Origin: Deltaproteobacteria bacterium | GTDB taxonomy: Bacteria; Desulfobacterota; Syntrophobacteria; Syntrophobacterales; Syntrophobacteraceae | NCBI GenBank assembly: GCA_021777755.1 | Contig: JAJYDE010000037.1 | Coordinates: 1-40,233 of the forward strand | Reading direction: 5' to 3' | DNA: 40,233 nucleotides | Shown: one piece after another, positions 697 through 6,219 of the stretch | Position numbering within the stretch: position 1 is the first letter of the stretch | How the letters are laid out: each line of letters starts with the position of its first letter | Made by a program: the position numbers and the translations under genes | The notes under the pieces: model-generated | What the model was told of the DNA's origin: nothing | Database searches by the model: none | The model's input: only the letters and a program-made list of their open reading frames with translations

Positions 697-727
697 GTCT
701 TTCCGGTAGTCGCGGGGACAGTTTTTG

Positions 728-1567
728 ATGGATTCACCCCCTCACACCAAACTGCGGCTTTGCGTGCTCGCATCCGGCGGAGGCACGAACCTTCAGGCGA
801 TGATCGACCGCTCGGCCGAAGGGCTTCTCGATGCCCGAATCGTTTTGGTCTTGAGCGACAGGGCAGGGGCCGTTGCTCTAAAACGGGCCGAAAAGGCCGA
901 TATTGCCGCCTTTCATATAGATTACAAAACATCTGCGAAATCGACAATCGAACAGGCCGCAAGCCTTGTCGATCTGGCCGAGTTGGACTGCGGACAGAAA
1001 ATAATAAATGATGCGGACAGATCGACTCGCCTCGCCCGACTGGCAAGACTGGTCCTTGCCGAACACGAACTCATCCGCCGCATCGATTCGGTAGACCCCG
1101 ATTATGTCTGCCTCGCGGGCTTCATGCGCCTTTTAAGCCCTTATTTCATCGGGCATATAAACGCCCACGGCCCCAAAATAATCAACATCCATCCCGCGCT
1201 CCTGCCCTCCTTCCCGGGCCGTCATGGCTATGAGGATACCTTCCAGTACGGCTGCAAATGGGGCGGAGTGACGGTCCACTTCGTAGACGAAGGCGAAGAT
1301 ACCGGGCCGGTTATCGCCCAGGCCGTCTACCCGGTGTGGCCGGGCGAGGATGTCGAAACAATCCGAAACCGCGGTCTATCGCTCGAATATGAAGTCTACC
1401 CGCAGGTTATCAACTGGCTTGCGCGCGGGTTCGTCGCCACGCAAACCGGTTCGGACGGGAAGGCGCGCGTCGAGATAACCGATCCGCACTACCCGGCGAT
1501 TGTCGGCGGCTGGGTTCGCAAGGTTCTTCAGGGGTCTACCAACGAAACGGAAACAATAGCAAGTTAA
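728..1567 (+). CDS. purN: Phosphoribosylglycinamide formyltransferase (PurN), long form with internal insertion
   Basis: The protein of 279 residues transfers the formyl group of 10-formyl-tetrahydrofolate to glycinamide ribonucleotide. It shows the N-terminal LASGGGTNLQAMID phosphate-binding loop, then LAGFMRLLSP, then IINIHPALLPSFPG carrying the catalytic Asn and His, and EDTGPVI carrying the catalytic Asp. E. coli PurN has 212 residues. Much of the extra length here is a segment of about 45 residues (roughly 72-115) inserted between the first Rossmann half and the HELIRRID helix; it contains a Cys and looks helical. I chose ATG at 728 over the adjacent TTG at 725; a GGGGA sequence lies just upstream. 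It follows purQ on the same strand and was probably transcribed with it. Confidence 0.93.
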   Translation: MDSPPHTKLRLCVLASGGGTNLQAMIDRSAEGLLDARIVLVLSDRAGAVALKRAEKADIAAFHIDYKTSAKSTIEQAASLVDLAELDCGQKIINDADRSTRLARLARLVLAEHELIRRIDSVDPDYVCLAGFMRLLSPYFIGHINAHGPKIINIHPALLPSFPGRHGYEDTFQYGCKWGGVTVHFVDEGEDTGPVIAQAVYPVWPGEDVETIRNRGLSLEYEVYPQVINWLARGFVATQTGSDGKARVEITDPHYPAIVGGWVRKVLQGSTNETETIAS

Positions 1568-1793: not shown

Positions 1794-3452
1794 TCAAAAG
1801 TTGTGCCCATTTATGGCAAGCACGGGCAACCCCGGTTCCACGCGGTCGTAAAACCTCTCGGCTTCCCCGGCGCTCCGCACGAAATAAAACCCCTGCCCGG
1901 GCCTTATGTCTCCAAGCGCCAGGTCCCCGGCGCTTCTCCATTCGCGCTCATGGCGCCACCCGGCGGAAGAACCTCGGCCGCTCAGCTGAAAGCGAAATCT
2001 TTCCGATTCGGGAAGCTTCGAGTAGCTTTGCGCGCTCCCATATATCGCAGGCTTTGCCCCGAGCGAGCGCAACAGGTCGCGCCGCAGGGCCACGCCGTAT
2101 GGCTCGACGGTCCAGCGCGCAAGCCCCGGGCGCCATTTCCTGATCAGCGACAACTCCTTTGGATGAAGCGAACTCCAGCAGACAACCGCCGTCCGGCCGC
2201 GAACCATGCGGCAGTGCGCTCTCAAGAGGCCTTCGGCGGCAATGCGAAGCAGGGTGTCGAAGGCCGAACGGCCGGGTAAACCGTCGGGTTCGAGCAGCTC
2301 GAGAAGATATTGCCGATAGGTTTGGCCGGGCCACGGGCCGCCGCATGCCCGGGTATAATGAAAAAGATAATCGCGCAAGGCAACTTCGTTTATGCGTGTG
2401 ACATGCAATCCCGAAGAGGGGGAGAAATTGGCGGGCGCAAAAGATTTGCTCCTTGCCGGTTGGTGCTGTCCGGGCGGATTGAATCCAACCGTATGCTTCG
2501 GAAATTTCCTCAACAGGATGCGGTTTCCTCCGTTACCGGAACCGGTGCCCTCCGGTTTCATAACCAACCGGGGCCGAGGTGATCGGGTCTGGAGCTCTTC
2601 CAGGACCGCCAAAAGGTTTCCGCCGGATCTTATCTCCAGCACGAGATGGAGATCGGAGAGCCAGGCAAGGAGACGGTCACGGCACTTGAGGGGCAGTTTT
2701 GCGGGGCATGGTGCGCCGCAAAGGGCGCAGGAAATCACCGGGATATCGGCCGCTTTTTCGCCGAATAGCCTGTGAAAATGGGGCTCGGTCTCCGTCAGTG
2801 GAAATGGTGCGACGAGGAGTTGTAAAAATCCGAAACGGTGGGCAAAAACGGAGGCAAGATCGTAGGTGAGCGTTCCCGTGCTGCCGGCCAGGGCGATCTT
2901 CCCATGTTCAAGGGCGCCCAGGGAGGAACGCAGCCCCTCCAGCCAGGAAGAAAGTGGAGAAACCAGTCTCGGCTTTCGGGAATTGAATACGGCCAAAAGG
3001 GGAGGCGGAGCGGACGGACAGCCCTTCGCAAAAAGAATCCCCGGACACTCGGGCAGGTCGGCCGGCGGCAGGGGCCGTCCGACCGCACCGCCGCAAGAAG
3101 CCTCGGGCGCCATGACCCGGATTCCAGCCGATAGAAATTCATCGGCTCGCTTCCGGCTGGAGTCCCATTTATTCTTGTGCACCCGCGAATAGATGTTTCC
3201 GATCCATGCGCGCAGGTCTTCTTCGTTTCGAACCCCCGCTTTGACCAGCCCCGCAAGCAACCGCTGCTTTTCAAAACCGCGCAATTTTTTAAAGCGCCCT
3301 AAAAGGGCGGCAGCGCAAAGCACCGGATATGCCAGCTCATCTTCGAGCCGTATCAACCGGGACGAGCCTTCCGGCCTTCCGGCAAAAGCGGTGGCGAAAC
3401 GCATGGCCTTTTCAAAAGTCATCTCATCCACCGTCAGCACTCCCTTGGGCAC
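1794..3452 (-). CDS. Unrecognised 552-residue protein with glycine-loop middle and EREWR-type C-terminal region
   Basis: I do not recognise this protein as a whole. The N-terminal third (about 1-130) is charged and helical. The middle (about 170-260) has a hydrophobic strand-loop pattern, GKIALAGSTGTLTYDLASVF then LQLLVAPFPL, reminiscent of Rossmann or LOG/DprA-like nucleotide folds, and a CALCGAPCP cysteine cluster near residue 240. The C-terminal 110 residues contain PYGVALRRDLL, a short gap, AIYGSAQSYSKL and WRHEREWRSAGDLAL, an arrangement seen in DUF2971-like and related proteins that often occur with defence genes. The start is GTG at 3452 without an evident Shine-Dalgarno sequence; ATG 10 codons later is an alternative. 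It stands alone, convergent to purN. Base usage fits its neighbours. Function unknown; the domain hints are inference. Confidence 0.75.
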   Translation of the reverse strand: MPKGVLTVDEMTFEKAMRFATAFAGRPEGSSRLIRLEDELAYPVLCAAALLGRFKKLRGFEKQRLLAGLVKAGVRNEEDLRAWIGNIYSRVHKNKWDSSRKRADEFLSAGIRVMAPEASCGGAVGRPLPPADLPECPGILFAKGCPSAPPPLLAVFNSRKPRLVSPLSSWLEGLRSSLGALEHGKIALAGSTGTLTYDLASVFAHRFGFLQLLVAPFPLTETEPHFHRLFGEKAADIPVISCALCGAPCPAKLPLKCRDRLLAWLSDLHLVLEIRSGGNLLAVLEELQTRSPRPRLVMKPEGTGSGNGGNRILLRKFPKHTVGFNPPGQHQPARSKSFAPANFSPSSGLHVTRINEVALRDYLFHYTRACGGPWPGQTYRQYLLELLEPDGLPGRSAFDTLLRIAAEGLLRAHCRMVRGRTAVVCWSSLHPKELSLIRKWRPGLARWTVEPYGVALRRDLLRSLGAKPAIYGSAQSYSKLPESERFRFQLSGRGSSAGWRHEREWRSAGDLALGDIRPGQGFYFVRSAGEAERFYDRVEPGLPVLAINGHNF

Positions 3453-3620: not shown

Positions 3621-4442
3621 TCACACAAAGTATTCAGGTTCCCGCCGGACGTCGGAATACTTGAGTTCCAGTTCGCTTTTGTGCCCTAAATAATTTTCAT
3701 CGTCGAAGTACTTCGCTCCCACGGGACAATTCTTAAGGCAGGCGCAACACTTGATGCATATGCCGCTCACATTGGAAACATCGTCTTCTTCAATCGAGCC
3801 CATGGGGCAAACCTGCGAACAAAGCTTGCAGTCGATGCAATCGCTGTTGGTTTTTGGCTTGGCCTTGAGAAAGCCCGTGTTTTTGCCGCTCGCATCCTTT
3901 ACCCGGTAATATTCCCTGTAGGGTTTATTGCCCTTTACGGTAAGGGCGGCGTTTACGCCCGGAGTTTTTATCCTGTCACACAGCTTTGCCGCAAAATCGC
4001 CTGCCGCGGCCATATCCTTCTCGTCGGGCCTGTTTGCCCCCAGCACGGTGGAAAAAGAATGTTCGCCGATGAATGCGCCCGCCCCGACAACATGAAAGCC
4101 TTTGGCTTCCAAAATGTCTTTGAGCTCTATCAGCGCGTCGTCAAAGTCCCTATTTCCGTAAAGAACCACAGCCACCGCGTCCGCTCCATTTCCGCGGATC
4201 GTGTCCAGGAATTTGAGCAGCACGTTGGGTACGCGTCCGGCGTAAACAGGAACTCCCGCTACGACAAGATCGTCACTGCCGAAGCTAAGGCTGTTCTTTC
4301 GAGCTTGCGGCAGTGTAAAGTCATGATGACTCACCGGAATATTCGCCCCGAGGTTTTCCGAAATTTTTTGAGCGATGCCCTTCACAATTTTTTCAGTCGT
4401 GCCTGTGGGGCTGAAATAGAGTGTATTGATCGTCTTTTTCAT
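3621..4442 (-). CDS. EFR1-type flavodoxin/ferredoxin fusion protein
   Basis: A 273-residue protein with an N-terminal flavodoxin-like domain (residues 1-170; FMN phosphate loop FSPTGTTEKI, then VVAGVPVYAGRVP) and a C-terminal 2[4Fe-4S] ferredoxin domain (about 195-245) with CIDCKLCSQVCP and CIKCCACLKNCP. This architecture is the EFR1 ferredoxin family, common in anaerobes, which probably shuttles electrons in the cytoplasm; the partners are unknown. An upstream in-frame ATG at 4580 exists, but I chose ATG at 4442 because AGGGGAC precedes it by a normal distance and homologues start with MKK-I-x-LYFSPTG. It is divergent from the DinB-like gene at 4649. Nothing suggests damage. Confidence 0.9.
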   Translation of the reverse strand: MKKTINTLYFSPTGTTEKIVKGIAQKISENLGANIPVSHHDFTLPQARKNSLSFGSDDLVVAGVPVYAGRVPNVLLKFLDTIRGNGADAVAVVLYGNRDFDDALIELKDILEAKGFHVVGAGAFIGEHSFSTVLGANRPDEKDMAAAGDFAAKLCDRIKTPGVNAALTVKGNKPYREYYRVKDASGKNTGFLKAKPKTNSDCIDCKLCSQVCPMGSIEEDDVSNVSGICIKCCACLKNCPVGAKYFDDENYLGHKSELELKYSDVRREPEYFV

Positions 4443-4648
4443 CAACTGGTCCCCTCTGCATGGAATTGGCGAAATCTTCGAATTCGGGCTGTTTTCACTT
4501 GAACACCAGGTAAGGCAATGTATTCGGATTTGCATGAATTTGGCTTTAGAAATAGAAAAAATAATGGCCGAAAGCAACAAAAATCGCCTGGTTGATGATT
4601 AGCTTCATTTGGAGCTGTGCCGGTACGACGGGGCCGAAAGGAAAAGTG

Positions 4649-5151: not shown

Positions 5152-6219
5152 TTACGAAAGCGGGTCTTGGGAGGCCTTTCCCGCGAAATTGGATTTGCTA
5201 GCCGCGGGCTTTACCACTTGCCACAGGGAATCGACAAAATAACGGCGTTTATCGAAAAAGTGCCTTCGCACCTCGAACCCGGTCTTTTGGGCAAGGCGGA
5301 CGATCTCGGATTCCAGGAATTTATAGGAACTTTCCGTGTGGATGGGCTCCCAGGCATCGAAGGAAAAGGACAAGTCGAGGTCCCTTATGAAAACCTCCTG
5401 TTTTTCCCTGCTTACCAGATAGCTTTCCACGGCTCCCGTGGCCACTTGGTAACTCCCGTAATAGAGGAACTTTTCGCGATCGAATTGACCGCCCAGTTCG
5501 CGGTTGATTCTGTCGAGCACGTTCAGATTGAAGTCGCGGGTAACTTCCTGCGGGTCGTTATAAGCCCTGTTTAAAACAGCGATATCCTTCTTCAGGTCAA
5601 AGCCTATCAGTAACCGGTCGCCGCATCTCAGACAGCCCCACAGGCGGCGGAGAAACCTCGCGGCGGCCCGGGGGTGCAAATTGCCGATATTGGAGCCAAG
5701 AAAGAGGGTGAGATTTTTTGAGCCATTGTTGTTTTCCAGCCATTTCAGCCCGTCGAAGTACTCGGCCACGATCCCGGTAACCTTGAGGCCGGGTGAAAAC
5801 ATCTCGCCCAGGGAAACCGTGAGGCCGTTTACCGACTCGGGCGAAATATCGAGCGTTATGTATTCGAACTGGTATCGTTTATTCAAAAAGCACTCGATCA
5901 GCGACATGGTCTTTCGGCCATCGCCTGCGCCGAGTTCGATCAGGTTGAAAAACCGCCCCGGCAAGTACTCGGAAATTTCCTCCCCGCGGGAAGTCAATAT
6001 TTCCTGCTCGCTTCGGGTCAAATAATAGGATTCGAGTGTGGTGATACGCCGGAAGAGCTCGCTGCCCGCTTTATCGTAGAGGTAGAGCGAAGGAATGCTC
6101 TTGGGTCTTTGAGACAGTCCTTCGAGGATGTTCCGTGCGAACGAGCGGTGTGGTGAATGGTCGGTGTCGGGTTTGAGTATCCTTGGGTTTTCTTCAATTT
6201 TGGAGGGGTTTGACATCAT
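5152..6219 (-). CDS. egtD: L-histidine N-alpha-methyltransferase EgtD
   Basis: The protein of 355 residues matches the EgtD family: an N-terminal SLYLYDKAGSELFRRITTLESYYLTRSE segment, then the SAM-binding motif LIELGAGDGRKT (about residues 93-104), and LFLGSNIGNLHP. EgtD trimethylates histidine to hercynine using three SAM molecules, the first step of ergothioneine synthesis. Its ATG overlaps the stop of egtB (ATGA overlap at 6216-6219), so the two are translationally coupled. A second ATG directly follows the first. Length is slightly longer than the mycobacterial enzyme, from both ends. It is cytoplasmic. No active-site damage is visible. Confidence 0.93.
   Translation of the reverse strand: MMSNPSKIEENPRILKPDTDHSPHRSFARNILEGLSQRPKSIPSLYLYDKAGSELFRRITTLESYYLTRSEQEILTSRGEEISEYLPGRFFNLIELGAGDGRKTMSLIECFLNKRYQFEYITLDISPESVNGLTVSLGEMFSPGLKVTGIVAEYFDGLKWLENNNGSKNLTLFLGSNIGNLHPRAAARFLRRLWGCLRCGDRLLIGFDLKKDIAVLNRAYNDPQEVTRDFNLNVLDRINRELGGQFDREKFLYYGSYQVATGAVESYLVSREKQEVFIRDLDLSFSFDAWEPIHTESSYKFLESEIVRLAQKTGFEVRRHFFDKRRYFVDSLWQVVKPAASKSNFAGKASQDPLS

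Follow-up and report, generated by a model that had tools for sequence, protein, structure and literature searches.

A gene on the minus strand of the window, by which we mean the whole stretch of 40,233 nucleotides that was analysed, encodes a 552-residue protein in which a DprA-like half is joined to a C-terminal domain of ADP-ribosyltransferase (ART) fold. Our computations reveal this architecture, a set of conserved residues in it and a distribution of one copy per genome across the order. By the sequence-family tests the protein is neither DprA nor DarT, and we take it to be a new fusion of both kinds. The open-access literature, including passages of PMC9122126, PMC11543638, PMC5817196 and PMC7824862, yielded no description of a DprA-ART fusion; nor did we come across its near-core distribution or the ART assignment of the domain bearing its EREWR motif, both modules being known already.

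An open reading frame with two fused modules

The 552-residue frame reported in a preliminary description of this DNA, made from the letters alone, is indeed present at 1794-3452. It goes beyond chance, since matches at E<=0.001 occur in 39 of the 97 genomes searched (its own included), and the best match outside its own genome in this protein search reached E 4.9e-222. Its parts are the following:

1794-3452, minus strand: whole fusion gene of 552 codons and a stop codon, starting with GTG; relatives present in 39 of the 97 genomes searched
3060-3344, minus strand: helical N-terminal part, residues 37-131; aligns to the N-terminal (SAM-like) part of DprA/ShosA
2463-3059, minus strand: DprA-like Rossmann domain, residues 132-330; structure matches and hhalign E 9.5e-10
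2850-2888, minus strand: AGSTGTLTYDLAS loop, residues 189-201; S191 and G193 nearly invariant
2394-2462, minus strand: linker, residues 331-353; partly of low confidence (residues 334-347 at pLDDT <50)
1797-2393, minus strand: ADP-ribosyltransferase-fold domain, residues 354-552; AlphaFold model and structure matches
2349-2360, minus strand: HYTR, residues 365-368; all 45 rows of alignment A2 have the H and the R; H-x-T as in DarT
1935-1949, minus strand: EREWR, residues 502-506; both Glu invariant in the 43 rows reaching them; candidate catalytic Glu
2682-3047, minus strand: four-Cys span, putative metal site; C136 at 3045-3047, C242 at 2727-2729, C249 at 2706-2708, C257 at 2682-2684

On one side the gene is convergent with a purN-like gene at 725-1567 (plus strand), and on the other it adjoins a flavodoxin/ferredoxin-like gene at 3621-4580 (minus strand), both names being read from the translations. 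Also near the fusion gene, at 5152-6219 (minus strand), lies a frame whose product resembles a methyltransferase in its translation; we take it to have the look of an EgtD-type (ergothioneine) enzyme, which would be odd in an anaerobic lineage.

Two sequence features singled out previously are both there, the AGSTGTLTYDLAS loop and the RRDLL...EREWR arrangement. The protein had also been called an orphan, and that word holds in so far as the fusion protein returned no match to Pfam (at E<=10), NCBIfam or PADLOC, and fails in so far as both relatives and known folds were found. Single other members of alignment A1 gave stray family matches at E 0.02 to 0.3, and a profile search with A1 against PDB sequences returned no match. 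PF02481 (DprA/Smf) was matched by 2 of the 30 A1 members (best E 4.7e-4) and by the distant relatives L053 (E 4.7e-5) and L057 (E 4.4e-4); among the matches listed, the relative in G043 exceeded the gathering score (43.1 versus 29.6 bits). DUF2971 (PF11185), which the fusion protein does not match, was met in 2 of the 30 A1 members (best E 0.23) and was rejected as the family, PF11185 having four matches in the 97 genomes, none of them at the fusion gene or at any other member of its family. None of the 30 A1 members matches AbiGi (PF10899) at E<=1, and two stand-alone relatives of the C-terminal domain match it under the cut-off (E 0.0066 and 0.013); no family member examined reaches the cut-off for AbiGi or DUF2971. 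DUF4427 (PF14468) covers the C-terminal part of the distant relative L162.

Structural relatives of the N-terminal half

The AlphaFold check proposed in the preliminary description, run on the full protein with A2 (45 rows), gave a model at pLDDT 86.9 and pTM 0.87 in which two known folds were resolved, one DprA-like and one ADP-ribosyltransferase. Residues 37-338 match full-length DprA/ShosA at Z 15-18 by VIA-align. ShosA (8zva) was the best match in the PDB by Foldseek (E 2.7e-9, TM by target 0.57) and aligned with VIA-align at Z 17.8 and rmsd 5.3 over 268 residues (model residues 37-338), while the DprA proteins of S. pneumoniae, R. palustris and H. pylori gave Foldseek E values of 7.1e-9 to 4.1e-7 (TM by target 0.51-0.66) and VIA-align scores such as Z 17.4 for 4ljl and Z 16.8 over 254 residues for 3uqz_B. 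Next after DprA/ShosA, with Z values between 8 and 11, were proteins of the Moco carrier and LOG-like kinds. The alignments start at model residue 37-38, which falls onto residue 5 of 8zva and residue 2 of 3uqz_B. Comparison by hhalign of the Rossmann part with 20 canonical DprA sequences gave a probability of 96.5 and E 9.5e-10 over 180 columns. The middle of the protein, previously described as Rossmann-like, is of the DprA/SLOG type by both fold and profile comparison.

The fusion protein shares with DprA/Smf the SAM-like helical N-terminus and the Rossmann fold (residues 37-338), but it differs in missing the PF02481 gathering score (no match), in carrying RDR where DprA has the aligned RNR, and in having the ART fold at residues 354-552 in contrast to DprA's frequent winged helix; a C-terminal winged-helix (DML1/Z-alpha) domain is found in many DprA proteins, according to PMC5817196. 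That the fusion gene serves as the genome's DprA was ruled out, as the window's genome has its own canonical DprA as a separate gene on another contig. Among the matches listed, a strong separate PF02481 match (E <1e-60) is present in 36 of the 39 genomes of the order, the matches in G007, G013 and G023 being partial or weak only.

The C-terminal domain belongs to the ADP-ribosyltransferase fold

Folded alone from 43 rows, residues 354-552 gave an AlphaFold model at pLDDT 89.3 and pTM 0.86, which bears out the earlier idea of a separate EREWR-type C-terminal domain. In Foldseek this domain matched DarT 7omy at E 0.028 and TM about 0.43, with no chain at E<=0.001. VIA-align re-examined the 336 chains that Foldseek itself had already proposed; of these, 37 reached Z>=2, corresponding to 30 listed entries, and all 30 are of ART fold: DarT, Tpt1/KptA, bacterial ART toxins, pierisin-1, Arr and PARP1 (the Rhs toxins TreX/TreTu and PltA in the list are ARTs as well). 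The seven best entries are all DarT at Z 7.0-8.1 (top 7omw, Z 8.1, rmsd 3.8, 135 residues), followed by Tpt1/KptA (7yw4, Z 6.1), and the comparison of the full model gave DarT 7omx/7omy at Z 7.7 over residues 358-552, values to be read with the knowledge that in VIA-align a Z below 8 may reflect mere common arrangement and that models without a clear match typically peak at Z 7 to 8. We find the ART assignment persuasive because the match list holds one superfamily only.

By hhalign the C-terminal domain failed to show similarity to a DarT alignment of only four rows (E 0.33), a value on par with that against the canonical DprA alignment (E 0.41), and the link to DarT suggested by the model is purely structural. 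DarT, which attaches ADP-ribose to DNA, resembles the domain as its best fold match, in the H-x-T motif and in a Glu heading a late strand. It differs in that sequence-profile similarity is lacking, in that PF14487 (DarT) misses the fusion gene (5 matches in the search of 97 genomes, none at the fusion gene, with the own genome's DarT copy recovered) and in that no macrodomain (DarG-type) gene was seen close to the fusion gene. Macrodomain matches occur in 38 of 40 genomes, including G005, G029, G035, G039 and G040, which lack the fusion gene; in four genomes (G015, G020, G027 and G037) they lie on the fusion gene's contig at a distance of at least 38 kb, and otherwise on other contigs (positions judged by eye).

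The window's genome also has, at G000:C10:120984-122016, a DarT gene interrupted by an in-frame stop, with a macrodomain gene after it, apparently a decayed DarTG pair.

Conserved residues point to a candidate active site

H365 and R368 are present in 45 of 45 A2 rows and T367 in 44; R418 and Y471 each occur in 44, the remaining row being a gap; and E502, E504 and R506 do not vary across the 43 rows that extend so far (the other two are gaps). A2 holds the partial proteins L042, L056, L060, L061 and L074, of which L056 and L074 are excluded from A3 and L060 and L061 from A4. In A9, made up of the fusion protein, six stand-alone relatives and three further members of the family, H-x-T, Y and ExEWR are invariant and the Arg of RG is not: the position of R418 holds Lys or Leu in three of the six stand-alone relatives. 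G033 has Lys at this position. The candidate active-site residues belong to the best-conserved positions of the protein. In all 41 relatives for which both domains could be compared, the ART domain shows higher conservation than the Rossmann domain (median identity to the fusion protein 44% and 32%, respectively).

PMC11543638 describes H17 and T19 of DarT1 as contacts of NAD+ and its E152 and R52 as essential residues. These suggest by analogy that H365, T367, R418 and one of E502/E504 might play the roles of DarT1 H17, T19, R52 and E152. We favour E504 as the putative catalytic Glu, as it heads a strand in the model, a choice made, like that of the corresponding Arg, by strand order rather than by residue superposition on DarT.

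A CxxCxxxC cluster had also been noted, and CALCGAPC does stand at residues 242-249; C245 in it is not conserved, and the conserved set is C136/C242/C249/C257 instead (Cys in 27, 30, 28 and 28 of 30 A1 rows, respectively). The set is complete in most close relatives, with three members missing from L042, two from L045 and only C136 from L043, and it is wholly absent from the distant relatives L053-L055 and L057-L059. Behaving largely as a set in the alignments, the four Cys may bind a metal or serve a redox function in the close relatives.

The fusion gene is near-universal in the order and descends broadly vertically

In the protein search, the fusion gene was found in 36 of the 39 genomes of the order (absent from G005, G029 and G035), in 3 of 16 other genomes of the class and in 0 of 42 others of the phylum. 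Copy number in the order is essentially one per genome; exceptions to a single intact copy are two-piece genes in G017 (on two contigs) and G033, an extra 55-residue fragment in G003 and copies ending at contig edges in G013 and G022. A profile of the C-terminal domain matched 35 of the 39 genomes of the order and, among 297 genomes drawn from the phylum, 18, nine of them belonging to the order. Outside the order, those 18 include a full-length-like relative in G154 (open frame 524) and a 416-aa protein in G160, and weaker matches to a stand-alone C-terminal domain in G172, G199, G268, G309, G328, G101 and G197 (open frames of 201-311 codons).

An alignment-based scan of a named genome collection returned 44 loci, and a scan of the same collection with the single fusion sequence gave no match. 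The loci belong to Syntrophobacteraceae MAGs, Desulfacinum, Desulfosoma, Desulfoferrobacter and Desulforhabdus. More distant loci come from LCP-89, Calditrichaeota and further MAGs, and a number of them encode proteins of about 400 aa that lack the N-terminal region. The 50,697 phage records searched contained no relative of the fusion protein, and among viral contigs a pattern scan yielded eight pattern matches, none of them a relative. Plasmids gave one weak match, to the C-terminal domain (26.6% identity over 28% of the query, E 4e-3); this relative (L076/L077) lies on a Hymenobacter aerilatus plasmid and is directly preceded by a gene for a 1679-aa protein with weak STAND/AAA matches. The weak relatives L076/L077 and L162 measure 414-416 aa.

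In one bacterial family, all five loci (L155-L159) have a stand-alone ART-like gene of about 184-230 aa downstream of a PhoH-like gene; in three (L156-L158) it directly follows a YbeY-like gene, and in two (L158 and L159) it directly precedes an Lnt-like gene, the names resting on Pfam for L156 and L158 and on translations elsewhere. These stand-alone genes are candidate new components of a core RNA/envelope operon. Of two other stand-alone relatives, one directly follows ligA, the gene for NAD-dependent DNA ligase (L160:190-792, minus strand), and one directly follows a TatD/radical-SAM gene (L161:199-819, minus strand).

Patristic distances of the fusion family correlated with those of canonical DprA over 31 genomes (Spearman 0.70), a value that 0 of 1000 permutations reached (highest 0.34); the comparison leaves out the carriers G007, G013, G017, G022 and G023, whose DprA or family sequence is weak, partial or outside the retrieved set. 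Eleven of 28 splits are common to both trees and seventeen are not shared. Among the common ones are the group of nine genomes that represent the window's genus in this comparison and a clade of G026, G028, G030, G032, G034 and G038. A supported conflict places G037 with G036 in the family tree (SH-aLRT 96) versus G016 in the DprA tree (92), and neither tree cleanly separates the family groups f1 and f2. The fusion family has longer terminal branches than DprA (median 0.57 over 35 rows versus 0.14 over 31 rows, the two trees differing in rows and columns). Since the distances correlate and the splits are partly shared, descent is broadly vertical, with single transfers possible.

Neighbouring genes vary and include recurrent housekeeping genes

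We found no universal partner gene across 45 loci (the 44 named loci and the window). A family of about 350 aa lies upstream on the opposite strand in 14 of the 45, and a family of about 423 aa directly upstream on the same strand in five, with L032 as a sixth at 1.9 kb upstream. Pfam scans of 106 neighbour ORFs identified YchF (PF06071) in nine and ThiC (PF01964) in five, which we take, although they were not mapped singly, to be the 350-aa and 423-aa families. The gene had been described as standing alone, and the 12-kb piece of the window around it shares no neighbour with any of the 44 named loci. Because no neighbour from this piece recurs elsewhere, the presence of the fusion gene is stable and its place is not. 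The neighbourhood survey proposed earlier found the window's copy alone and no universal partner, with housekeeping genes recurring in close relatives.

Neighbour ORFs were the longest non-overlapping frames, 284 being chosen, so that real genes may be missing; short ones were excluded from the scans, which covered 90 of 107 ORFs of the distant set and 101 of 177 of the close set plus five of the window. PADLOC matched nine families, one ORF each, among the 106 ORFs of the close relatives (101) and the window (5). Among the 90 ORFs of the distant set, 202 PADLOC models were matched, the kinases beside L071/L072 being the commonest among the 25 listed of the 202, and restriction/methyltransferase models were matched by two ORFs. 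A phosphoribosyltransferase was absent from the 25 most frequent of 85 and the 25 most frequent of 148 Pfam families for the 106 and the 90 ORFs, respectively. A defence operon in the distant relatives was considered and rejected: the PADLOC matches of L071/L072 are generic Ser/Thr kinases, and the genes after L066 and L068 encode TPR proteins.

What the fusion protein may do

With moderate confidence, we propose that the protein is an NAD+-dependent ADP-ribosyltransferase aimed by its DprA-like module at nucleic acid, probably ssDNA, with a role in DNA metabolism. Its catalysis, substrate, targeting of ssDNA and cellular role, as we infer them, would run as follows. The DprA-like module (residues 37-338) would bind nucleic acid, most likely ssDNA, and present it to the ART-fold domain (residues 354-552), which sits at the place of DprA's frequent winged-helix domain, would bind NAD+ via the H-x-T motif and would use a Glu of EREWR for the transfer of ADP-ribose onto a base in the manner of DarT. 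DprA binds ssDNA and DarT modifies ssDNA, which makes ssDNA the likeliest substrate. In ordinary DNA metabolism, ssDNA might be marked or protected in this way during repair, replication stress or DNA uptake, and because one copy is kept across the order, the role is probably physiological rather than one in roaming phage defence.

A link to defence had been the suggestion of the preliminary description, and a corresponding reading, which we regard as unlikely, is that of a single-gene toxin-antitoxin system or phage sentinel: the DprA-like half would restrain the ART half until phage ssDNA or a phage-made signal appears, and the released ART would hit DNA or NAD+, as is thought for the two-gene ShosTA and DprA-PRTase systems. 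ShosA is the best structural match of the DprA-like half, and we keep this reading alive because, according to PMC9122126, DprA homologues are antitoxins in the two-gene systems shosTA, syrTA and rqlHI, and a pair of DprA with a PRTase gives protection from T7 and lambda. The same source gives such pairs two genes and a phosphoribosyltransferase or other toxin partner, whereas the fusion protein has one gene, an ART fold and no recurrent partner seen in 45 loci. EREWR-type domains do occur in defence-like settings, namely the weak plasmid relative beside the weak-STAND/AAA protein and the AbiGi matches under the cut-off, and the long end branches of the family tree would also suit a sentinel. 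For the fusion protein itself, however, the near-universal, essentially single-copy and broadly vertical occurrence, with a tree broadly like that of a core gene, the YchF and ThiC neighbours of close relatives, the scarcity of PADLOC families around it and the lack of relatives in phage records and viral contigs argue the other way, and the defence reading is weakened. Homologues confined to housekeeping contexts with a known function had been named in advance as speaking against it; the close relatives do have housekeeping neighbours, and a known function did not emerge.

It is also rather improbable, in our view, that the domain ADP-ribosylates RNA or protein, or acts on RNA ends as an NAD+-dependent enzyme of the Tpt1 kind; the DprA-like half would then bind RNA or a nucleotide. 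The Tpt1/KptA entries that come next after DarT in the structural comparison would accord with this reading, and the PhoH (5 of 5), YbeY (three) or Lnt (two) neighbours of the stand-alone relatives would fit an RNA substrate equally, which counts against our proposal; yet every Tpt1/KptA entry scores below all DarT entries and over fewer aligned residues, and the fused half is like DprA, which binds ssDNA. Tpt1, to our knowledge, is without the catalytic Glu of ARTs, whereas E502/E504 are invariant in the fusion family. We think it very doubtful that the ART fold is non-catalytic and binds a nucleotide or a partner, the protein then being a structural DprA paralogue that helps in competence or recombination. 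Canonical DprA works without an enzyme domain, and AbiGi, weakly matched by two stand-alone relatives, is an antitoxin according to Pfam; against this, the candidate active-site residues are among the protein's most conserved, and the plain DprA role is already filled, since a separate strong DprA match exists, among the matches listed, in 36 of 39 genomes of the order.

DNA ADP-ribosylation in bacteria has so far been mainly a matter of DarT toxins, and DprA outside competence has been mainly the sensor or antitoxin half of defence pairs. If our proposal of an ADP-ribosyltransferase aimed at nucleic acid by a DprA-like module is true, this vertically inherited fusion would offer a testable case of DNA ADP-ribosylation in normal physiology and would link the DprA-type defence pairs to core DNA metabolism. 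The EREWR ending of several unnamed families is also tied here to a fold, and hence to a candidate activity.
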